Origin: Candidatus Polarisedimenticolaceae bacterium
GTDB lineage: Bacteria > Acidobacteriota > Polarisedimenticolia > Polarisedimenticolales > DASRJG01
DNA length: 64,000 bases
Direction of reading: 5' to 3'
Assembly (NCBI GenBank): GCA_036275915.1
Contig: DASUCV010000002.1
Location: forward strand, 1 to 64,000
A program made the translations under genes and the position numbers. Below, one piece after another: positions 30,633 to 43,035 of the stretch; within the stretch, counting starts at the first letter, position 1; every line of letters begins with the position of its first letter. The notes beneath the pieces were generated by a model. That model made no database searches and was not told where the DNA came from. It saw nothing but the letters and a program-made list of their open reading frames with translations.

Positions 30633-30681
30633 ATTCCTCCGCGATTTGACGGTCCTCGCGTGGTCTCCTAAGGTGCGTGGG

Positions 30682-31791
<1,110 letters not shown>

Positions 31792-31892: not shown

Positions 31893-33332
31893 GTGGAATG
31901 GGCCGACAAGGACGACCTGGTTCGTCGCGGCGTGCGCTTCGCGCTCGTCGTGGCGATCGTCGTGGCGAGCGCGCGCGTGACGCGCGCTCAGGTCCTCACG
32001 ACGATCACGCTCGACGGGAACATGGCGGACTGGGCGCCGATCCTCTCGGACCCGAATCAGAAATCGATCGACGGTCCCGCGCCGGGCGCCGGTGTGGATC
32101 GCGACGCACCGGTCGGCTCGACGGGGCGTGACCTCACAGGGTTCGCGTGGACGTGGGATTCGACCTATCTCTACTTCTACGTCTCCCGCGCCGCCTCGGA
32201 CAGCAACCGGCAGCGCTTCTGGTACTACCTCGACACGAACGAAGACAACCGGATGGCGACCGGCGAGTACGTCGTCGGCGTGAGCTGGCAGGGCAGCAAC
32301 CGCAGCACCGACATCGAGCTCTACCGCTACAACGCGGTCGCCGCAGGCGCGGGCGACTCGCTCGGCGACGCGAACGGATTCGCCGACGGCTACGACATGC
32401 CCGGCTCCGTCACGTCGCTCGGCATCGTCGAGTCCGGAACGTTCGGCGCCGCCAACGGCGTCGAGATGGAATCGCGCATCGCGTGGTCGCGTCTCGGCGT
32501 CGCCGCGGGAACGCCGGTGCGCTTCCACGTCGCGGCCTCGAACGGCACCAACATTCCCATGAGCGTCCAGGACAACATGGGCGGTCCGGGCGGGCTCGTC
32601 GGCACGACCCGCATCGTCGGCGTACGGCTCGACCCCGATCGCGCGATCACCACGATCTCGCCCGGCCAGGCGATCGCGGCGCACGTCGCGACCAACCTCG
32701 GATCGAACACCGACACGATCAATTTCTCGTGGACGGTCTCCGGCGCGCTCGTGCCGACGTCGGTCGTGCTGCGCGCCGACACGAACGGGAACGGCGTCCT
32801 CGACGCCGGCGAGCCGCTGCTCACCGACACCGACGGCGACGGGCGCGTCGACACCGGCGCGCTCGCGAAGAACGCCAATTTCTCGATCCTCGCGGTCGCG
32901 ACCATCCCCGGGGCCCAGCCCGACGGGCGCTCGTGCACGCTGACGATCACCGCGTCGTCGAGCAAGAAGCCCTCGATCACCGATCCCGCGACCGACACGA
33001 TCACGATCGCGACGCCGTCCGTCACGCTCGTCAAGTCGGTCGATCGCGCCACCGCGAAGCCGGGCGACGTGCTCACGTACTCGATCACCTACACCGGAGG
33101 CGGGAGCGCGAGCGCGCTCGCCGTCACCGTCACCGATCCGGTTCCCGCGCAGGTCGCGTACGTCGCCGGCTCGGCGTCGGGCGCGGGCACCACGATCACC
33201 TACAGCCACGACGGCGGCACGACGTACGACGCCTCCGACGCGGCACCGGTCACGAACATCAAGTGGGTCAGGACATCGCCGCTTGCGCCCGGGGGGTCGG
33301 GCACGGCGTCGTTTCGAGCGGCGGTCCGCTAG
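31893..33332 (+). CDS. Exported protein with an N-terminal DOMON/CBM9-like domain and DUF11 domain
   Basis: A 479-residue protein. The signal segment FALVVAIVVASARVTRA is followed by a beta domain (TITLDGNMADWAPILSDPNQ, then FAWTWDSTYLYFYVSRAA) resembling CBM9/DOMON carbohydrate-binding folds. Acidic DTNGNGVLDAGEPLLTDTDGDGR is a calcium-binding type III dockerin-like loop. The C-terminal 110 residues (PSVTLVKSVDRATAKPGDVLTYSITYTGGG) are a DUF11 repeat. Start is uncertain: GTG 31893 or GTG 31932, as neither has a good ribosome site. It opens a rightward cluster of related exported proteins. Confidence 0.75.
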   Translation: MEWADKDDLVRRGVRFALVVAIVVASARVTRAQVLTTITLDGNMADWAPILSDPNQKSIDGPAPGAGVDRDAPVGSTGRDLTGFAWTWDSTYLYFYVSRAASDSNRQRFWYYLDTNEDNRMATGEYVVGVSWQGSNRSTDIELYRYNAVAAGAGDSLGDANGFADGYDMPGSVTSLGIVESGTFGAANGVEMESRIAWSRLGVAAGTPVRFHVAASNGTNIPMSVQDNMGGPGGLVGTTRIVGVRLDPDRAITTISPGQAIAAHVATNLGSNTDTINFSWTVSGALVPTSVVLRADTNGNGVLDAGEPLLTDTDGDGRVDTGALAKNANFSILAVATIPGAQPDGRSCTLTITASSSKKPSITDPATDTITIATPSVTLVKSVDRATAKPGDVLTYSITYTGGGSASALAVTVTDPVPAQVAYVAGSASGAGTTITYSHDGGTTYDASDAAPVTNIKWVRTSPLAPGGSGTASFRAAVR

Positions 33333-33365
33333 CCGCTCCGTCATTTCCAAGAGGGAGAACGAACG

Positions 33366-33863
33366 ATGAGGAGCAAGGGAAGAACCATGACGGCGCTCGC
33401 CGCTCTGGGGCTCGCCGTCGCGGCCTACGCGTCGGTGCCCAAGGTCGAGGTGACCGTCCAGGCGCAGAAGGAAGTCGTCAGGACCGACGCGTCCGGCAAG
33501 AAAGCGGTCGAGCTGAAGCCGGCCGAAGAGGCGGCGGCGGGCGACACGATTCTCTACACGCTGCGGGCGAGCAACACCGGCACCGGCCCCGCGATGAGCC
33601 CGAAGATCGAGGACCCGATCCCCGTCGGAACGGTCCTCGTGCTCGATTCGGTCGCCAAGGACGGCTACGCCATCGAGGCGAGCCTCGACGGCGGGAAGAC
33701 CTGGCAGACGTTCCCCGCCACGGTCACCCGCACGAACACTAAGGGCATGTCCGAGACCGTCCCGGCTCCCGCGGAGACCTACACCACGTTGCGTTGGGTC
33801 CTGAACGGCCCGCTCCAGCCGGGTGACGGCAAGGACGTGTCGTTCAAGGTCCGCATTCGATAA
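33366..33863 (+). CDS. Exported DUF11-type protein, small
   Basis: A 165-residue protein with a signal peptide (MTALAALGLAVAAYA, about 8-22) and one DUF11-like domain: ELKPAEEAAAGDTILYTLRASNTGTGPAMSPKIEDPIPVGT and FKVRIR at the end. GGGAGAAC lies ahead of the ATG, 33 bases after the previous stop. Such domains form Ig-like sandwiches in surface proteins. Confidence 0.78.
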   Translation: MRSKGRTMTALAALGLAVAAYASVPKVEVTVQAQKEVVRTDASGKKAVELKPAEEAAAGDTILYTLRASNTGTGPAMSPKIEDPIPVGTVLVLDSVAKDGYAIEASLDGGKTWQTFPATVTRTNTKGMSETVPAPAETYTTLRWVLNGPLQPGDGKDVSFKVRIR

Positions 33864-33878
33864 CCGGAGGAGAAGACC

Positions 33879-34793
33879 ATGACTGTCCGCTCGAGCATTG
33901 TCCTTCGCCTGACCGTCCTGGCCTTCGCCGGTGCGGTCCTGGCCACTCCGTCGTGGGCGATCGGGACGCGCGCCACCACGGCGATCACCAACCAGGCCCA
34001 CGTGACCTTCCAGGACACGAACGGCAACCCGCTGTCCCAGAACTCGAACACCGTGACGACGATCGTCAGCCAGGTCGGCGGCGTCGACGTCGCGCCGAAC
34101 AACGGCCCGATCACCCTGGCCCCGGGCACGACGCACTACTTCCCGCACACCGTGACGAACACCGGTAACTACGACGACTACGCGAACCTCACCGCGGTCT
34201 CGGCAGGCGCGTGGCCGGTCGCCATCTATCGCGACGTCAACAACAACGGGACCTACGAGGCCGGCACCGACGTCCTCCTCACGGACAGCCCCGGCGACCC
34301 GGACAGCATCCCCGATTCGGGGCTCCTCGCGAACGACGGGCTCATGCACATCCTCATCGCGGTCACGGTACCGGCGGGCACTCCCGACGGCACCGGCGAC
34401 GTCACGACGACGACGGGCGTCTCCGTCTTCGACGGGACGAAGAACGACACGGCGACCGACACGATCAACGTGACCTCGCCGAACGTCTCGGTCGTGAAGT
34501 CGGTCGCGCCGGTCGGCAACCAGCCGCCCGGAACGGTCCTGACCTACACGGTCGTCGTGACGAACAACGGCACGAGCGCGGCGTCGAACGTGATCCTGAC
34601 CGATCCGATCCCGGCGAACACGACGTACAACGCCGGCACGATCACGTACAACGCGGCGGCGCGGACGGACGGCGCCGACGCGGACAACGCGGACTACAAC
34701 GTGACGAACGCCGGGCAGATCACGGTGAACGTCGGCACGCTCGCCGCGAGCGGCGGGACGGCGACCGTGACCTTCCGGGTCCACATCAACTGA
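33879..34793 (+). CDS. Exported DUF11-domain surface protein
   Basis: A 304-residue protein with a signal peptide (1-27, ending LATPSWA), then a beta domain beginning TTAITNQAHVTFQDTNGNPLSQNSNTV. A calcium-type loop DVNNNGTYEAGTD and a DUF11 domain follow (SPNVSVVKSVAPVGNQPPGTVLTYTVVVTNNG, NVILTDPIPANTTYNAG). CCGGAGGAGAAGACC precedes the ATG, a very strong ribosome site. The short 15-base gap from the previous gene indicates one operon. The following 133 bp before the giant gene hold GC-rich inverted repeats but no gene. Confidence 0.82.
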   Translation: MTVRSSIVLRLTVLAFAGAVLATPSWAIGTRATTAITNQAHVTFQDTNGNPLSQNSNTVTTIVSQVGGVDVAPNNGPITLAPGTTHYFPHTVTNTGNYDDYANLTAVSAGAWPVAIYRDVNNNGTYEAGTDVLLTDSPGDPDSIPDSGLLANDGLMHILIAVTVPAGTPDGTGDVTTTTGVSVFDGTKNDTATDTINVTSPNVSVVKSVAPVGNQPPGTVLTYTVVVTNNGTSAASNVILTDPIPANTTYNAGTITYNAAARTDGADADNADYNVTNAGQITVNVGTLAASGGTATVTFRVHIN

Positions 34794-34926
34794 TCGATCG
34801 ATAGCCAGCTCTCGTCGCGGGGCGGGGTGCGCTCGTGCGCCCCCGCCCCGCGGCGTCCGTTTCACACATCGTCGCGGACGGGGTCCGTCGGGGGGACCGT
34901 CCGCACTCCTCGGAGTCGCCGAAGCC

Positions 34927-37900
34927 GTGACTGCAGGACCCGTTCGCCCTCCCGATGCCGCCGGCTCCCTTCATTGGGACGCGCGCGCGGGCGTCTGCGC
35001 GCGGACTCTGTTCCGCGCGTGCGCGACGGCTCTCGTCCTGCTGCTCGCCTTCCCCGCCCTCGCCGCGACGGCGCCGGGGACCTCGATCGTCAACACGGCG
35101 CATGTGCGCGCCGACTCGACCGACGTGACCTCGAACACCGTCGCGACGACGGTGGCGACCCTGACGGCATTCGACCCTCTGCGCCTCTCCGTGTCGCCCG
35201 CCGGCGCCGTCGCCCCGGGCACGCTGCTCACCTACACCGTGACCGCGGTGAACAACAGCGGCGTCGACCTGCCCGACGCGACGATCCGCCTGCCGTTCGA
35301 CACCGACCTCGTCGATCCCTCGTTCCCCGCGGGAGGTGGCGCCGCGGGAAGTCCTCCGGCGACGGGGAGCTGGGACCCGGCCTCGCGCACCGCCATCTGG
35401 ACGGCCGGAGCGGTCCTTCGAGGCGCCACCGTGACCGTGAAGATCACCGCGCGCGTCCGGCCCGACGCGACGACCGACGACGCCGTCGACGAGACCGCCG
35501 AGGCGACGTCGTCCCTCGCCGCCGGTCCGCTCGCGAGCAACGCGGTCCACACGCCGATCGTCTCGCCGCTCCTGCGCGTCACGAAGATCGCCGACCGCTC
35601 CACGGTCGCGCCCGGGGACGGCGTCGGCTTCGAGCTGACGGTGACGCACACCGGCACCGCGACGCCGCTCGCGTCGGTCGTGGCGATCGACCGCCTGCCG
35701 GCCGCGCTGCGCTACGTCGCCGGGACCGCCCGCCTCGACGGCAACGCCGCGCCCGATCCGTCGATCGGCGGCGACGGGGTCACGCTGCGGTTCGCGCTCC
35801 CCGACATGGCGCCGGGCGATACGCACGTGCTCCGCCTCGGCGCGCGCGTCGGGCCGACCGCGGCCGAGGGCGAGATCGTGAACCAGGCGCACGGCGAGGC
35901 GGTGACCCAGGGCGGGAACGCCCTCGTTAGCGCCACCGCCTCGGCGGCGGTGCGCGTCATCCCGGGACCGTTCCAGCAAGAGGCCGCGGTGGTGGGCCGC
36001 GTCTTCGTCGACGACGACGGCGACGGCCGGCCGGGAGACGGCGAGCCCGGCGTCCCCGGCGTTCTCGTCGTCTTCGAAGATGGCCGCGGCGCGGTCACGG
36101 ACGTCTCGGGGCGCTGGCACCTCGAGGGCGTGAGGCCGGGCCTGCACGTCGTGCGAATCGATCCGGGGTCGCTGCCACCGCCGCTCGCCCCGGCGTGCGG
36201 CGGCGGCGATTGGGCCGGCGGCTGCGACAGCCGCTACCTCGAGACCCGCGCCGCCGGGCTCGTGATCGCCGACTTCCCGGTGAAGCCGGGACACGTGCCG
36301 CGCTGCACCGTCGCGAGCGGCCACGGACGTCTCGTCGTGCCGCTCGTCTCCCTCGATCCGGCGGGGCCCGCGGGATCGGCGCGCGCGCACGCCGTTCTCG
36401 AGGCGGCCGCCGCGTACGTCGTCGACCAGGGCGAGACCTTCCCGGGCTCGGTCACCCTCGTGTGCGAGGGCGATCACCCCGAGATCACTTCGTGGCAGGA
36501 GACACTCCGCGGACTCGTCGCCCAGCGCGCGAACGCGGCTCCCGATCCCGCCGTCCACGGCCTGCAGAGGCTCGAGCCTCAGCCGACGGCTGCGGCGACG
36601 TCACCGCCGGAAGCGCCGAAGGATCCGCTGGAAGACTTGGTGCGCAAGGCGCCCGCGGCCGCGGCGATCGCGTTCCCGCCGGACGGCGCGCGCGCGCCGC
36701 GCGAGTTCACGAACGTCGAGGTCGTCTACCCGCTGGGGTCGCGGCTCGATCTCACCGTGAACGGCAGCCTCGTCCCGATGGATCTCGTCGGCGCGACGTC
36801 CACGCTGCCCGCGCGACAGATCTCCGCCTCGCGCTTCGTCGGCGTGCGCTTGAGGCCGGGCGTGAACGTCCTCGAGCTCCGCGCGTCGCCGCCGGGCGCC
36901 GATCCCGCCTCGATCGAGCCGGTGCGCACGACCGTTTACCTGCCGGGCGCGACCGTCGCGCTCGAGGTCGCGGCCGCGGAATCCCGCTGCGTCGCCGACG
37001 GCGTGACGCCGTGCACCGTCCGCATCCAGGGTCTCGACGACGGCGGCATGCGCTCGGGGGACGAGCCGCTCGTCACCGTCGTCGTCGAGGGCGCGCACGC
37101 GCTCGACGCCGACGCCGACCCGCGCGCCGAGGGGCTCCAGGTGCGGATGACGCAGGGGCTCGCCGTCGTGCGCCTGGCGCCGCCCTCGACGCCGGGGCGG
37201 ATCCGCGTCTTCGCGCAGATCGAGCGAACGACGGCCGAAGCGTTCGTCGACGCGGTTCCGGCCGGCGGCGGCTGGCGCGTCGCCGGGCTCGCCGAAGGCC
37301 ATCTCGCCGGCGACGCCGGTGTCGAAGGCGACGGCGGACTCCCGCCGGGCGTCCAGGACAACATCTCGGACTCCGGCGGACGGCTCGCCCTCTTTGCGCA
37401 GGGACCCGTCCTCGATCAATCGCACCTCACGGTCGCGATCGACACCGCGCGGAAGCACGACGACTACCGCCTCTTCGACCGCTTCCGCCCGGACGCCTTC
37501 TTCCCCGTCTACGGCGACACCGGCCCCACGCTCGACGCGGCGGCGCGGCAGGGCCCGCTCTTCGTCCGCTTCGACGGCCCCGCCGGCTTCGTCGCGGCGG
37601 GCGACTTCGAGACCGGGTTCACGCACACGGAGCTGGCGCGCTACGACCGCCGCCTCACCGGCGCCTGGGGACGCGCGGGGAACGACCGCGTTTCCGTCGA
37701 AGCGTTCGCGGCCGACACCGGCCAGCAGGCGATCCGCGACACCTTCTCGCCCGACGGCACCTCGGGTCCGTACCTGCTGAGCCGGCGGCCGGTCGTCGCG
37801 TACTCGCAGACCGTCATCTTCGAGGTCCGCGATCGCTGGCGGCCGGACCAAGTCCTCCGGCGGATCGTGAAGCAACCCGACCTCGACTACGCGCTCGACC

Positions 37901-39765
37901 CCGAGGCGGGAACGATCCTCTTCCGTGGCCCGGTGAGCCCGTTCGATCCCGACCTGAACCCGATCGACGTCGTCGTCCTCTACGAGGCGCGGACGGGAAG
38001 CTCCGACCAGATCGCGGCCGGCGCACGGCTCGTCGCGCATCCCACCCCCGACATCGACGCCGGCGCCACCGCCGTCCACGAGGGCCACGCCGGCTCCGAT
38101 CTCGACATGGTCGGCGTCGACGTCGTCTGGCGCGCGCGGCCCGGAACCACGATCGCCGCGGAGTCGGCGGCGACCCGTCAGGCCGACGACACCGCCGTCG
38201 CCTATCGCTTCGACGCGACCTCGCAACCGAACGACGCCTTCCGCTGGGAGGCGCACTACCACGACATCCCCGCCGGCTTCGCGAACCCGTCGTTCCTCTC
38301 CGCCGCGGACACGGGCGGACAGCGGGCGTCGATCCTCGCCGGCTGGCAATCGAAGGGACCGTGGCGCGTCAAGGGCGAGGCGCTCTGGCAGGACGATCAG
38401 GTCAACCATCTCGAGCGCACGTCGGGCGCCGTCGGCTTCGAGCGGCACACCGACGTCCTCACCTTCAGCGGAGCCGTCCGCGGCGTCTCCTTCGACAACG
38501 CGGGCGTTTCCGACAGCTCGCTCCTCCTCGAAGCCGGCGTGAAGGGCAAGCTCGCGCCGCGCTGGACCGGCGAGCTGTTCCGCGCCCAGAACATCGCGGG
38601 CACGATCACCCCCGGATATCCGGATCGCACGGCCATCGGCGTGTCGTGGGAGATCAAGGACGGCCGGCGCTTCGTCCTCCGTCACGAGATCGAATCGGGC
38701 GGCGACTTCCCCACGCACAACCGCACCGTCGCCGGCCTCGAGAGCCGCATCGGCGCGAACACGCGCGCGCTCGTGAACTACACGCTCGAGGGAGGCGCCG
38801 CGGGCACCGCGCTCCGCGCGTCGAGCGGCGTCGAGACCGTGCTCCCGCTGACGCCGGTCAGCTCGCTCACCGCATCGGCCGCCGTCGTCGACACGTCGCG
38901 CGGCGACGGCACCGCCGACTTCGTCGCCCTCGCGGGGGGCTACGAGTACCGCGCCGGCACGTCGCTCGTCTCGACGCGGTATGAGGTCAACTTCAACCAC
39001 GTCGACGTCCGACATCTGCTCACCGCCGGCGGCGCCTTCCGTCTCTCGGACCCGTGGACGCTCTTCGTCCGCGAGCAGGTCTTCCTGAGCGATCCCAGCA
39101 CGGGTTCGGCCTCCGCGCGCGCCGAAGGGCTCTTCGGCACCGCCTATCGCCCGCTCACGGGCCCGTTCCAGTTCCTGTTCCGCCTCGACAACACGATCGC
39201 CGGCGGCAGTCCGATCACCGCGGGCGGCGTAACGCCGGGCGGCGTCGCCTCACAGCCCGCGGCGTCGCTGGCGACACCGCCGCGCGACCCCGGCGAGCCC
39301 GGCCTCGGCACCGATTACGCTCGTTACGGCGCCTTCGCGACGCGCGACAGCGTCGCCTTCAACTTCGCCGCCGGCTTCCGCATCGACGCGCGCAACCGTC
39401 TCGCCTCGACCCTCGTCTTCAAGCACGCGGGCCCGGAGGCCGACACCGGCATTCCCGGCTCGACGACGTGGCTCCTCTCGCTCCACTACACCGCGTGGGT
39501 GAAGGAGCGCTGGACCGTCGGCGCGAGCGCGCGGCAGTTCACCGTGCACGAGACCGGCCTGACCTCGTACGGCGAGGGCGTCGAGCTCGGCTACCTCGCG
39601 ATCAAGAACCTGTGGGTGACCGGCGGCTACAACTTCGCCGGCTTCAAGGACACCAACTTCTCGTCCGCCGAGCGCACCGAGAGCGGGCCGTTCCTCTCGC
39701 TCCGCTTCAAGTTCGACGAGAAGAGCCTGGCGTCGATCAAGGACTTGAGGCTCGACAAGCCGTGA
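34927..39765 (+). CDS. Giant exported protein: DUF11 repeats, SdrD-like domain and C-terminal outer-membrane barrel
   Basis: A 1612-residue protein. After an N-terminal hydrophobic signal (about 25-47), DUF11-type domains occur at about 75-215 and 215-345. A Cna-B/SdrD-like domain with VFVDDDGDGRPGDGEPGVPG and VSGRWHLEGVRPGLHVVRID lies at about 357-410. An Ig-like region follows (about 560-810). From about 815 to the end, alternating amphipathic strands (GRLALFAQGPVLDQSHLTVAID, then YNFAGFKDTNFSSAERTESGPFLSLRFKF) look like a beta-barrel. The start is GTG, and a shorter form beginning near the signal is possible. It is likely an outer-membrane anchor or receptor acting with the three smaller DUF11 proteins encoded upstream; this is inference. 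Confidence 0.8.
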   Translation: MTAGPVRPPDAAGSLHWDARAGVCARTLFRACATALVLLLAFPALAATAPGTSIVNTAHVRADSTDVTSNTVATTVATLTAFDPLRLSVSPAGAVAPGTLLTYTVTAVNNSGVDLPDATIRLPFDTDLVDPSFPAGGGAAGSPPATGSWDPASRTAIWTAGAVLRGATVTVKITARVRPDATTDDAVDETAEATSSLAAGPLASNAVHTPIVSPLLRVTKIADRSTVAPGDGVGFELTVTHTGTATPLASVVAIDRLPAALRYVAGTARLDGNAAPDPSIGGDGVTLRFALPDMAPGDTHVLRLGARVGPTAAEGEIVNQAHGEAVTQGGNALVSATASAAVRVIPGPFQQEAAVVGRVFVDDDGDGRPGDGEPGVPGVLVVFEDGRGAVTDVSGRWHLEGVRPGLHVVRIDPGSLPPPLAPACGGGDWAGGCDSRYLETRAAGLVIADFPVKPGHVPRCTVASGHGRLVVPLVSLDPAGPAGSARAHAVLEAAAAYVVDQGETFPGSVTLVCEGDHPEITSWQETLRGLVAQRANAAPDPAVHGLQRLEPQPTAAATSPPEAPKDPLEDLVRKAPAAAAIAFPPDGARAPREFTNVEVVYPLGSRLDLTVNGSLVPMDLVGATSTLPARQISASRFVGVRLRPGVNVLELRASPPGADPASIEPVRTTVYLPGATVALEVAAAESRCVADGVTPCTVRIQGLDDGGMRSGDEPLVTVVVEGAHALDADADPRAEGLQVRMTQGLAVVRLAPPSTPGRIRVFAQIERTTAEAFVDAVPAGGGWRVAGLAEGHLAGDAGVEGDGGLPPGVQDNISDSGGRLALFAQGPVLDQSHLTVAIDTARKHDDYRLFDRFRPDAFFPVYGDTGPTLDAAARQGPLFVRFDGPAGFVAAGDFETGFTHTELARYDRRLTGAWGRAGNDRVSVEAFAADTGQQAIRDTFSPDGTSGPYLLSRRPVVAYSQTVIFEVRDRWRPDQVLRRIVKQPDLDYALDPEAGTILFRGPVSPFDPDLNPIDVVVLYEARTGSSDQIAAGARLVAHPTPDIDAGATAVHEGHAGSDLDMVGVDVVWRARPGTTIAAESAATRQADDTAVAYRFDATSQPNDAFRWEAHYHDIPAGFANPSFLSAADTGGQRASILAGWQSKGPWRVKGEALWQDDQVNHLERTSGAVGFERHTDVLTFSGAVRGVSFDNAGVSDSSLLLEAGVKGKLAPRWTGELFRAQNIAGTITPGYPDRTAIGVSWEIKDGRRFVLRHEIESGGDFPTHNRTVAGLESRIGANTRALVNYTLEGGAAGTALRASSGVETVLPLTPVSSLTASAAVVDTSRGDGTADFVALAGGYEYRAGTSLVSTRYEVNFNHVDVRHLLTAGGAFRLSDPWTLFVREQVFLSDPSTGSASARAEGLFGTAYRPLTGPFQFLFRLDNTIAGGSPITAGGVTPGGVASQPAASLATPPRDPGEPGLGTDYARYGAFATRDSVAFNFAAGFRIDARNRLASTLVFKHAGPEADTGIPGSTTWLLSLHYTAWVKERWTVGASARQFTVHETGLTSYGEGVELGYLAIKNLWVTGGYNFAGFKDTNFSSAERTESGPFLSLRFKFDEKSLASIKDLRLDKP

Positions 39766-39767
39766 TC

Positions 39768-41810
39768 TCACTCCGGCATCGAAGTGCCCCAGTAGTTCGC
39801 GTCGAAGAACGGGGCGTAGTCCTTGCCGGAGAGGACGCGGAGAAGGTCCGCGACCAGCTTGGTCGAGCCCGCCTTGCCGTGCAGCGTCTTCTGGTACGAC
39901 TTCAGGAACGTCAGGAACTTCTCGTCGCCCAGCTCCTCGTGCAGTCGTGTCAGCAGCCACGGACCCTTCGCGTAGAGCAGGCCGAATCGGTCCTCGAAGC
40001 CCGTCGTGGGATCCTTCCACGAGATCCGGTTCGCGAGCGCGATCGGGGCGACTCGCGTGGCGTTCTTCGCCCGCAGCTTCCAGGTCGCCTTCAAGTTGTC
40101 GAATACCCCCTTGCCTTGCGCGCGCTTGATCATGAGTCCAGCGGAGTACTCCGCGAACGACTCGGACAGCCACGTCTCCTCCGGACCGGGCCATCGCAGG
40201 GCGTGTCCCCACCACTGGTGCGCGATCTCGTGCGCGAACCGCTCGTTGACGCCCTGCGTGTAGAAATGTGCGATGTCCGGCGGTAGCGCTCGCTCGAACG
40301 CTTCGTTCGTGATGAGCATCATCCCGAGCGGCGCCTGTCCCCAGCCGAGGTCGTTCACCTGCACGATGTTGAGCTCCGGGACCGGGAACGGACCCAGGAA
40401 GCGCTGCATGTGATCGATCATCGCGAACGCAAGCTCGGAGAGCTGCTCCTGCGAGCGGGCGTTTTTCCCGGCATACGTGGCGACGCGCACGGTCAGCCCG
40501 TCGCGGCTCGTCTCGTTCACTTGGTAGTTCCCGGCGATGACCGCGACGAGACCGCTCGCAAGCTCCGAGCGAACCTCGAGGACGTTGTCGTCGCCGTCCT
40601 CGCTGCGCTTCACCGTCGAGCCGGAGGCCAGCGCACGGAACGGCTTCTTGACCCGGATGACGCCGTGGGTCGTGTACTGCCGCCCCGCGAACGGCGGCTG
40701 AGGAAACAGCTCTTCTCCTTCCAGGATCCAGTAGTTGTCGCCGCCGGGTCGAACGAGATAGTCGCCTTCGATGCGGAACACGACCGTCACCGGCCGGTCC
40801 TTCGCGGCTGCGCGGCCGAGATCGACGAGGAGCCTCGAGTTCTCCTGCGCGAAGGCAAGCGGCGCTCCTTGCGCATCCGCCACGGACGCCACGTGGTAGT
40901 GCCGCTCGGTCGAGTTTCCGGGTCCCGACCGGACGAGGATCGGCCCTGGGATCTCGAACTTCAGGACGCGAAGCCGTTCCCTGGCCGGCACGATCGTCGT
41001 GCGCGCGACGATCGACACGAAATCTCCGGAGGTCGCCGTCAGCTCGTAGTCGGCTGCGGTCATGAGGAACGCCGGGGCGGCCGGTGCACGACGATCTCTT
41101 CCGATCGGCTGCTCCGAGAGCGTCGTCGAGCGCGGCCACTTGCGCCGCGCATCGTCGTCGGTTTGTGGCGCGCCGAGGATCTCCAGGGACTCCGACCGCT
41201 CGTCGACGGCGTCGTAGGTGTAGACGAGCGGCCCGTCGCCACCGCCGATTTCGACGCGCACCGTCGGCGGCGTCACGCCGTCGAGCATCGCAGCACCCAC
41301 CAGACGAGCCGTCGATCCGCCGTCGTACTTCTCGAATGCGCCGCTGTGATCCCGGAAGCGATTCCGGATGGCCTCGACCGGCGGAGAGGCTCCGTCCCCC
41401 GCGAGAGGCGGAGCCTCACCCGATGTCGCCCACAGAATCGTCGCCGCGGTGCCGTCGATCGCGACGCCGCCCTCGACGTCCGCGACGTCGACGCGCCCCT
41501 CGGTCTTCGCATTGAATCGGAGAACCGGGTACTCGACGGGATCGTGGGAGACGTATCGAAATTTCGCGTTGCCCGCATAGAACCAGCCGGCCTTCGCTGA
41601 CCCCAGGATGAGAGGACACACGGTGCCACCGGCGAGCTGGATCTCGAAGTTGCCTTGGGCAAGGCGACCCGTGGGCACCACGACGCACGACTCACCGAGG
41701 CTCGCCTCGGAGAGGGACGACGGCGATGACGCTGGCGGCGCGTCCGCGAGCGCGGCCGAAGCGCACGAGCAGACGATGAGATGGACCACGGCACGGTTCG
41801 CGACACGCAT
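39768..41810 (-). CDS. M1-family zinc metallopeptidase
   Basis: A 680-residue exported peptidase. It has an N-terminal signal (about 1-22, VHLIVCSCASAALA). The zinc site HEIAHQWW is near residue 525, with the third ligand Glu in WLSESFAEY about 20 residues later, the standard M1 arrangement. The GLGWGQAPLGMMLITNEA stretch resembles the GAMEN-type substrate loop, though the motif itself is diverged. The N-terminal 250 residues are unlike classical aminopeptidase N. A tripeptidyl- or leukotriene-hydrolase-like specificity cannot be read from sequence. It converges on the giant DUF11 gene with two bases between the stops. Confidence 0.85.
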   Translation of the reverse strand: MRVANRAVVHLIVCSCASAALADAPPASSPSSLSEASLGESCVVVPTGRLAQGNFEIQLAGGTVCPLILGSAKAGWFYAGNAKFRYVSHDPVEYPVLRFNAKTEGRVDVADVEGGVAIDGTAATILWATSGEAPPLAGDGASPPVEAIRNRFRDHSGAFEKYDGGSTARLVGAAMLDGVTPPTVRVEIGGGDGPLVYTYDAVDERSESLEILGAPQTDDDARRKWPRSTTLSEQPIGRDRRAPAAPAFLMTAADYELTATSGDFVSIVARTTIVPARERLRVLKFEIPGPILVRSGPGNSTERHYHVASVADAQGAPLAFAQENSRLLVDLGRAAAKDRPVTVVFRIEGDYLVRPGGDNYWILEGEELFPQPPFAGRQYTTHGVIRVKKPFRALASGSTVKRSEDGDDNVLEVRSELASGLVAVIAGNYQVNETSRDGLTVRVATYAGKNARSQEQLSELAFAMIDHMQRFLGPFPVPELNIVQVNDLGWGQAPLGMMLITNEAFERALPPDIAHFYTQGVNERFAHEIAHQWWGHALRWPGPEETWLSESFAEYSAGLMIKRAQGKGVFDNLKATWKLRAKNATRVAPIALANRISWKDPTTGFEDRFGLLYAKGPWLLTRLHEELGDEKFLTFLKSYQKTLHGKAGSTKLVADLLRVLSGKDYAPFFDANYWGTSMPE

Positions 41811-41880
41811 GAACGCCCCCTGAAAGACGGTTGGCGTTATTGTGCGCTGACCGGGGCCCCGAGTAGCGGGCTATCTGGAC

Positions 41881-43035
41881 TCAGACCGAGAAAACGCGCC
41901 CCTCCGGCCTCAGCGTGCGCGACTCGTTCTCGTAGAGGTAGGCCTCGATCGCGTGGCGGTCCTGAGGGCCGAACTTCTCGAACTCGAGGCCCATGCCGCT
42001 CGAGGGGACGGTGCGGACGACGCGACCGATGACGTGGACGTTCCCCTGGGACGTGGGGAGCGGGAACGAGAGCGCGCAGCGCATGCCGATGTCGATGGGA
42101 GCCGGCGTGCTCACGAAGAGGCCCGAAGGCGAGAGGTCCTGCGAGTAGCCCAGGAGAAGCGGCGACGAACCGTCGAGATAGACGGGCGTGCGCAGCGGCA
42201 CGCGCGGGCGGCGCGTGTAGCACCACACGCGGTTGCGGCCGAGGGCGCGCGCCTCTTTCAACGCCTCGTGCGCGCGGCTCAGGAGGTCGGTCTCATTGTC
42301 GGCGTCGGTCGGGTAGGACGCGGCGCCGAGCGAGAGCGTCACGCCGAAGGTGACGTCCGGGTCCCACAGCGCGGTGAAGCGGGTGCGCTCGACGTTCGAG
42401 CGGAGGCGCGCGGCGATCTGGCGCGCGCTGCCGCGGCCGAGGCCGGGGAGGATCACGGCGAAGTCGTCGTCCTCGACGCGGGCGACGAGGTCGCCGTCGC
42501 GCACGATCGCGCGGAGGACGCCGGCCAGCTTGCGGAGCACGTTGGTCGCAGCCTCGCGCCCGTGCGCGTCGACGACCTTGCGGAGATGATCGACGTCGGC
42601 GACGACGACGGCGAGCGGACGGCCGGTCGACGACGCTTCGCGCATCTCGACGCCGAGGCGCTCGAGGAACGTCTCGCGCGCGGCGAGGCCGGTCAGCGGG
42701 TCGCGGCCCGCCGAGCTGGGGCGCTCGGATTCGGCGCGTGAGACGACACGCAACACCGACACGGTGTAGCGGTTCGGGGCGGCGGCGCTCTGGGTGACCG
42801 TCGCTTCCACGTCGATGACGTGGCCGTCGCGACCGAGGAGGGCCATCTCGACCGAGTCTCGGGCCGCGGCCGGATCGAAGGCGCCGTCGGCGAGGAGGCG
42901 CGCGCCCGCGAGGCGGCCCACGACGTCGGCCGCCGTCCAGCCGGTCAGACGCTCCATGTCGCCGTCGAACCCGACGATCGTGCCCTTGACGTCGATGAGG
43001 AAGGAACCGCCGGCCTGAGCTCGCTCGTGACGCAT
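41881..43035 (-). CDS. PAS/degenerate GGDEF/PilZ signalling protein
   Basis: A 384-residue protein with a PAS domain (about 10-100, FLIDVKGTIVGFDGDMERLTGW), a GGDEF-type domain (about 111-275, RDPLTGLAARETFLERL and VVVADVDHLRKVVDAHG), and a C-terminal PilZ domain (about 275-365). The GGDEF active-site loop reads EDDDF at 188-192, so diguanylate cyclase activity is unlikely. The PilZ domain has R278xxxR282 and D300LSPSG305, the c-di-GMP-binding signature, suggesting a receptor rather than an enzyme. It lies 70 bases from the M1 peptidase gene and diverges from cstA. Confidence 0.85.
   Translation of the reverse strand: MRHERAQAGGSFLIDVKGTIVGFDGDMERLTGWTAADVVGRLAGARLLADGAFDPAAARDSVEMALLGRDGHVIDVEATVTQSAAAPNRYTVSVLRVVSRAESERPSSAGRDPLTGLAARETFLERLGVEMREASSTGRPLAVVVADVDHLRKVVDAHGREAATNVLRKLAGVLRAIVRDGDLVARVEDDDFAVILPGLGRGSARQIAARLRSNVERTRFTALWDPDVTFGVTLSLGAASYPTDADNETDLLSRAHEALKEARALGRNRVWCYTRRPRVPLRTPVYLDGSSPLLLGYSQDLSPSGLFVSTPAPIDIGMRCALSFPLPTSQGNVHVIGRVVRTVPSSGMGLEFEKFGPQDRHAIEAYLYENESRTLRPEGRVFSV

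Follow-up and report, generated by a model that had tools for sequence, protein, structure and literature searches.

Introduction

In chaperone-usher pili, each immunoglobulin (Ig)-like subunit lacks one strand, which the next subunit supplies from its N-terminus. DUF11 domains occur very widely in surface proteins, and most of them have no assigned function. Here we analyse a cluster of four DUF11 genes, named A to D, in a window of 64,000 nucleotides from Candidatus Polarisedimenticolaceae bacterium (contig DASUCV010000002.1, positions 1 to 64,000), a member of the Acidobacteriota with a 4.5 Mb genome and with Acidobacteria bacterium Mor1 among its near relatives. We propose that these genes probably encode a fibre built by donor-strand complementation of a DUF11 (or CLIPPER) domain that is cut one strand early. 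The proposal draws on gene linkage, the missing strand, a matching donor strand and conserved residues, all read from sequence, and on a structural model for the barrel of protein D; from these we infer strand insertion, fibre length, surface exposure, covalent bonds and adhesion.

Among the described DUF11 proteins, the CLIPPER fibrillar adhesins form surface stalks, sometimes with an OmpA-like anchor, and the crystal structure 9IFR shows a triad of Lys715, Asp748 and Asn806, with the Asn in the last strand (PMC12617251). Our cluster has the same domain and the same Lys-Asp-Asn residues, but in those adhesins the triad lies within one complete domain of one long chain, whereas here the domain is split between proteins. 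The grappling hooks GhpA (Aureispira) and GhlA (Litorilinea, 49 DUF11 domains) are extracellular DUF11 filaments made of one giant chain with tens of repeats (PMC13319060), in contrast to the four proteins, few domains and barrel base of the present system. Donor-strand complementation also occurs in archaeal threads (PMC9715654), which may have inter-subunit isopeptide bonds, and in TasA fibres (PMC9674648); both differ from our cluster in their unrelated subunit sequences, the lack of an outer-membrane barrel and different isopeptide residues. In the literature, of which subscription-journal papers mostly fell outside our coverage, no account was found of the module described below or of split DUF11 assembly.

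Incomplete DUF11 domains and their candidate donor strands

The four genes lie on the forward strand with intergenic gaps of 33, 15 and 133 bases (A-B, B-C and C-D, respectively). Their open reading frames show a coding-like G+C content at third codon positions (0.91-0.96), a signal-peptide-like N-terminus is obvious in all of them, and profile searches find DUF11/TIGR01451 in A (3.5e-8), C (2.4e-8) and D (2.6e-18), while B falls below the Pfam DUF11 cut-off yet matches TIGR01451 at 8.3e-11. This bears out an earlier sequence-only reading of the locus as four exported DUF11 genes, closely spaced on one strand. The “three small proteins” which that reading placed ahead of D are small in the case of B and C, but not of A (479 amino acids). 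Calcium-type loops of the form DxNxNGxxDxGE, also anticipated, were found in A, C and D, and those of A give weak EF-hand matches.

Gene A (31893..33332) encodes a signal peptide, an N-terminal passenger region without domain assignment, a C-like middle with two calcium-type loops, and a C-terminal DUF11 (33012..33329, residues 374-479) that ends one strand early. Gene B (33366..33863, 165 amino acids) consists of a signal peptide and a single incomplete C-terminal DUF11, and both A and B would thus be acceptors only. Gene C (33879..34793, 304 amino acids) combines a putative N-terminal donor strand, an Ig-like domain and a C-terminal DUF11 without its last strand (34476..34790, residues 200-304), being potentially donor and acceptor at once. 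Finally, gene D (34927..39765, 1612 amino acids) carries a putative donor strand, two DUF11 domains, an SdrD_B-like domain, a linker, Ig-like domains and a giant predicted outer-membrane barrel, as would befit a base. None of the four proteins has more than two DUF11 domains.

Complete DUF11 domains carry one strand beyond the ends of A, B and C, with the motif GTxIxNxAxV and the Asn of the isopeptide triad, so that these three proteins lack the last strand. Throughout the Acidobacteriota copies, these proteins and their counterparts stop exactly where the DUF11 match ends, without any tail, a count that leaves out a few long C proteins whose profile match is too weak to score. The other DUF11 proteins checked in the same genome do have tails, and in a related genome (G003) the only other tail-less protein ending in DUF11 is the A orthologue. 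The last-strand motif is found instead at the start of C (IGTRATTAITNQAHVTF) and D (APGTSIVNTAHVR), after the signal peptide and with its Asn and Ala invariant. The candidate donor of C, IGTRATTAITNQAHVTFQD (33960..34016, residues 28-46), follows the signal peptide directly and has Asn38 and Ala40 as invariant positions, and that of D, ATAPGTSIVNTAHVRA (35065..35112, residues 47-62), has Asn56 and Ala58 invariant in seven orthologues. Moreover, C is homologous to the N-terminus of D over the length of C (hhalign 98.3%, E 1.9e-14), and B is homologous to the terminal domain of C.

This donor/acceptor pattern was examined with a last-strand motif trained on non-module DUF11 domains, using 13,086 windows as controls. 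Of 35 C proteins, 33 have their best match at the mature N-terminus and 34 score above the control maximum, compared with 0/3 for A and 0/12 for B. A second, completion test used a hidden Markov model (HMM) of 114 positions, built from 27 complete non-module DUF11 domains, which the acceptors alone match only up to position 92 (A), 74 (B) or 93 (C). When the N-terminus of C is added, the match extends to position 112 and gains 14.1 (A), 11.5 (B) and 13.6 (C) bits; the N-terminus of D, at its best start, adds 14.7, 11.8 and 14.1 bits, respectively. Controls made of the N-termini of A or B, six other exported proteins and 41 internal pieces of D gain at most 4.4 bits. Across 22 genomes, and with equal freedom of start position, the median gain amounts to 12.6-13.7 bits for C, 8.5-9.2 for D and 3.2-6.0 for A or B.

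The residues of the isopeptide triad are divided in the same way. Lys and Asp are kept in the acceptors of A (Lys381 and Asp415, the Asn being absent) and C (Lys207 and Asp242), and the Asn in the donors of C (Asn38) and D (Asn56), while B has Arg39 at the position of the expected Lys and keeps Asp83. The second DUF11 of D (35563..35916, residues 213-330), a complete internal domain with a weak match to the TIGR04226 isopeptide family, has Lys220, Asp255 and Asn319 all present, whereas the strand with the Asn is missing from the terminal domains of A, B and C. In one orthologue of D (locus L041, 4671-9569) the three residues of the second DUF11 appear from the alignment to have disappeared jointly, which would fit a shared role as a single isopeptide triad.

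The barrel protein

The stalk of D includes an SdrD_B-like domain (35998..36159, residues 358-411), which the sequence-only reading had already named; its match is weak (19.6 bits against a cut-off of 29.7), but the domain is highly conserved among orthologues. The Ig-like domains ahead of the barrel (36619..37296, residues 565-790) resemble those of GH2 beta-galactosidases. The following barrel region (37960..39708, residues 1012-1594) ends in a conserved FxSxRFKFDE motif, the C-terminus of D being a conserved VSLRFKFDE strand. An AlphaFold2 (AF2) model of residues 565-1612, calculated from a 13-sequence alignment, places about 32 consecutive strands of 8-17 residues in the barrel region, with a mean predicted local distance difference test (pLDDT) of 70 and a predicted template-modelling (pTM) score of 0.60. 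The best Protein Data Bank (PDB) matches of this model in Foldseek include Deinococcus SlpA, LptD and TonB-dependent receptors (E-values down to 1.8e-7, TM-scores near 0.2). The model thus supports an outer-membrane barrel in the C-terminal ~580 residues of D, as first suggested, rather than a soluble domain.

The barrel matches no known barrel family in Pfam. No usher was matched by D in Pfam or NCBIfam, or found among the top Foldseek hits, and no autotransporter in Pfam, the ~32 modelled strands comparing with 12 for type V autotransporters. SprA, a 36-strand barrel brought up by a DYxLDxxxGTILF motif, was dropped, with no SprA match in Pfam and none among the 50 Foldseek matches listed for a model of moderate confidence. 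An OmpA-like periplasmic anchor in the D of the window was discarded as well, the region in question being a poorly conserved linker, and OmpA domains occurring only in other versions of D. Deinococcus SlpA/SDBC, among the top Foldseek matches, is also a large outer-membrane barrel, but the structural match is weak (TM ~0.2), no DUF11 stalk has been reported for it and its role is that of a trimeric S-layer protein.

A conserved module and its variable partner

A single-sequence genome scan and a viral scan found no relatives. D orthologues could be aligned at 32-50% identity, and the order B-C-D is held in the Acidobacteriota relatives, where the 41 genomes of the class divide into 11 with both full-type D and B and the rest with neither. 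In Burkholderiales, the order around a Comamonadaceae locus, B is present in 18 of 300 genomes; among 17 B loci, C adjoins B in all 17, and D lies alongside in all 15 that are not cut by a contig end. Plasmids also carry versions of the module: in Acinetobacter, D is followed by a separate OmpA gene, and in Picosynechococcus (Cyanobacteriota) D is split into a stalk gene and a barrel gene. A related version without detected B occurs in Deinococcus (Deinococcota). B-C-D is, therefore, a conserved module. On Acinetobacter haemolyticus plasmid p4 (L137, 2274-5108), the C-type gene is seemingly broken into several short annotated open reading frames, with B, D, OmpA and the last DUF11 gene intact. 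The DUF11 and barrel clusters of Deinococcus radiodurans MP1 (L138) and D. aquaticus (L139) are annotated as DUF11 or hypothetical only, in an organism that is genetically tractable.

Gene A behaves differently. Its full-length family occurs in six genomes of the class, all of them D-positive, and in four of the six it lies on another contig, so the four-gene order that had been expected is conserved across phyla for B-C-D but not for A, which is a variable partner, sometimes unlinked, outside the conserved core. Other lineages have a different passenger beside the module, such as a beta-helix protein (L034) or a CBM96 protein (L042). The N-terminal region of A itself has no assignment, and a CBM9/DOMON domain suggested by eye was dropped because neither Pfam nor the PDB supported it.

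Proposed assembly and alternative explanations

In the assembly that we favour, D would form the base, with its giant outer-membrane barrel and a DUF11/SdrD_B stalk that supplies the first donor strand. The N-terminal strand of mature C or D would fill the groove of the incomplete DUF11 in A, B or C. C, having both ends, would act as a linker or polymerising subunit, while A and B, acceptors only, would have to occupy the distal end, with A presenting its N-terminal passenger domain at the tip; the ends would thus set an order of A or B distal, C in the middle and D at the membrane. At joints where an acceptor with Lys and Asp (A or C) meets a donor with Asn (C or D), an inter-subunit Lys-Asn isopeptide bond could lock the subunits. 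This predicted arrangement recalls the chaperone-usher pili in its missing-strand Ig-like subunits, its acceptor-only tip with an N-terminal domain, its outer-membrane barrel base and its polarity, as far as can be read from sequence and single-chain models. It differs from them in its DUF11/CLIPPER subunits, in an unrelated barrel of ~32 strands and in a base donor fused to the barrel. No PapD-type chaperone was found among the four genes or the scanned neighbours, a genome-wide search not having been made.

Several observations weigh against such a fibre. The N-terminal motif of D exceeds the control maximum in only 19 of 31 proteins, and that of the window's own D scores 10.2, weaker than that of C and reached by two of the 13,086 controls; HMM gains of 10-20 bits are, taken singly, not overwhelming. 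AF2 models C poorly as a single chain (pLDDT 61), with only generic Ig-like matches in Foldseek, and the N-terminal strand of C could complete the acceptor of its own chain. In gammaproteobacterial D proteins and in the paralogues, OmpA-like domains lie between the stalk and the barrel and suggest a periplasmic location for this part of the protein, so that the stalk would have to traverse the barrel or assembly would have to begin in the periplasm. The Lys, moreover, is missing in B and in many Burkholderiales C proteins, so covalent bonding cannot be general, although the residues make inter-subunit locking possible in this lineage. Of the surface fibre or adhesion system with one shared domain that the sequence-only reading had imagined, the linkage, the barrel and an assembly logic written in the sequences are upheld, A is not always linked, and surface location, fibre and adhesion are what we infer.

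Other explanations account for part of the same evidence. By the strand exchange described, B, C and D, each in a single copy, might form a small, stable assembly in the outer membrane that is self-complementing or fixed in size, such as a porin cap or an envelope spacer. A simple A-C-D or B-C-D chain would account for the donor/acceptor pattern just as well, and the length of C, from 295 to about 1000 amino acids across lineages, is spacer-like; however, the N-terminus of C completes C's own terminal domain as well as those of A or B, so that nothing in the sequence stops polymerisation, and we regard a fixed-size complex as rather unlikely. D could also be a secretion channel, with the terminal DUF11 of A, B and C as a sorting signal for its DUF11 stalk and the clients released or displayed singly, without any fibre. 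Such a channel would agree with the large barrel, with a DUF11 placed exactly at the C-terminus of varied passengers (the unassigned region of A, the beta-helix and CBM96 proteins, and others), and with unlinked A-type proteins being confined, save for one embedded partial match, to D-positive genomes. It is nevertheless an unlikely reading, which leaves unexplained both the lack of exactly one strand and the presence of that strand at the start of C and D, and C itself bears both ends.

A quite improbable reading assigns GTxIxNxAxV to a conserved Ig or hairpin module at the N-terminus; its likeness to the last strand would reflect ancestry without function, from tandem DUF11 arrays that were cut at that point. 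The N-terminus of C does resemble the inter-repeat DUF11 junction in L048, L049 and similar single-chain giants, a likeness that the splitting of a tandem array would account for, and AF2 draws residues 35-45 of C as a local hairpin, in agreement with this reading. The invariant Asn and Ala of C and D speak against such a relic, as does the truncated acceptor that A and B still keep without having any donor. Selection on unused ends is unlikely across these phyla.

Paralogous versions and neighbouring genes

The same genome holds a paralogous two-gene version (L004, C20:94000-112000), composed of a 1685-amino-acid DUF11/SdrD_B protein followed by a 1713-amino-acid protein with three OmpA domains and a barrel, and D resembles a fusion of these two proteins. 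In relatives (L046 and L053) this version sits after ExbB/ExbD-type genes, which suggests that it is energised. In one family of the class (L048, L049, L051 and L052), single proteins of 2500 to more than 3800 amino acids carry up to 18 DUF11 domains, OmpA where detected and then the same barrel; these giants are the one-chain counterpart of the split module.

The cluster is flanked in the window (30646-31791 and 39768-43035) by DUF362, M1-peptidase-like and GGDEF-PilZ genes. Of these, DUF362 and GGDEF-PilZ accompany the cluster in a relative of the same family (G001), whereas they are not beside the more distant copies, which marks them as probable neighbours rather than parts. Minor-pilin-like genes of the PilX/PilV/PilW type, as judged by their N-terminal sequences, lie downstream of D in Mor1 (L057, 16114-21646) and in another genome, G002 (L034, 1-1426). 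A link to the type XI secretion system (T11SS), drawn from a text match to DUF11, was abandoned when the match proved to be DUF1194.

Implications

A broader proposal, which we hold to be doubtful, is that of a widespread, undescribed class of Gram-negative surface fibres, with separately encoded subunits that join through a split CLIPPER domain, spontaneous Lys-Asn isopeptide bonds between them and a ~32-strand barrel as both exporter and covalent base; its joints would be a natural analogue of the engineered SpyTag/SpyCatcher pair. If the assembly proposed here is true, a recognisable subset of DUF11 proteins, at least in Acidobacteriota, Pseudomonadota and Cyanobacteriota, would form a multi-gene fibre with a predictable order of tip, linker and base. 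A solution like that of the chaperone-usher pili would have arisen from an unrelated domain, possibly one providing a source of natural split isopeptide pairs, in a prediction that is specific down to single residues.

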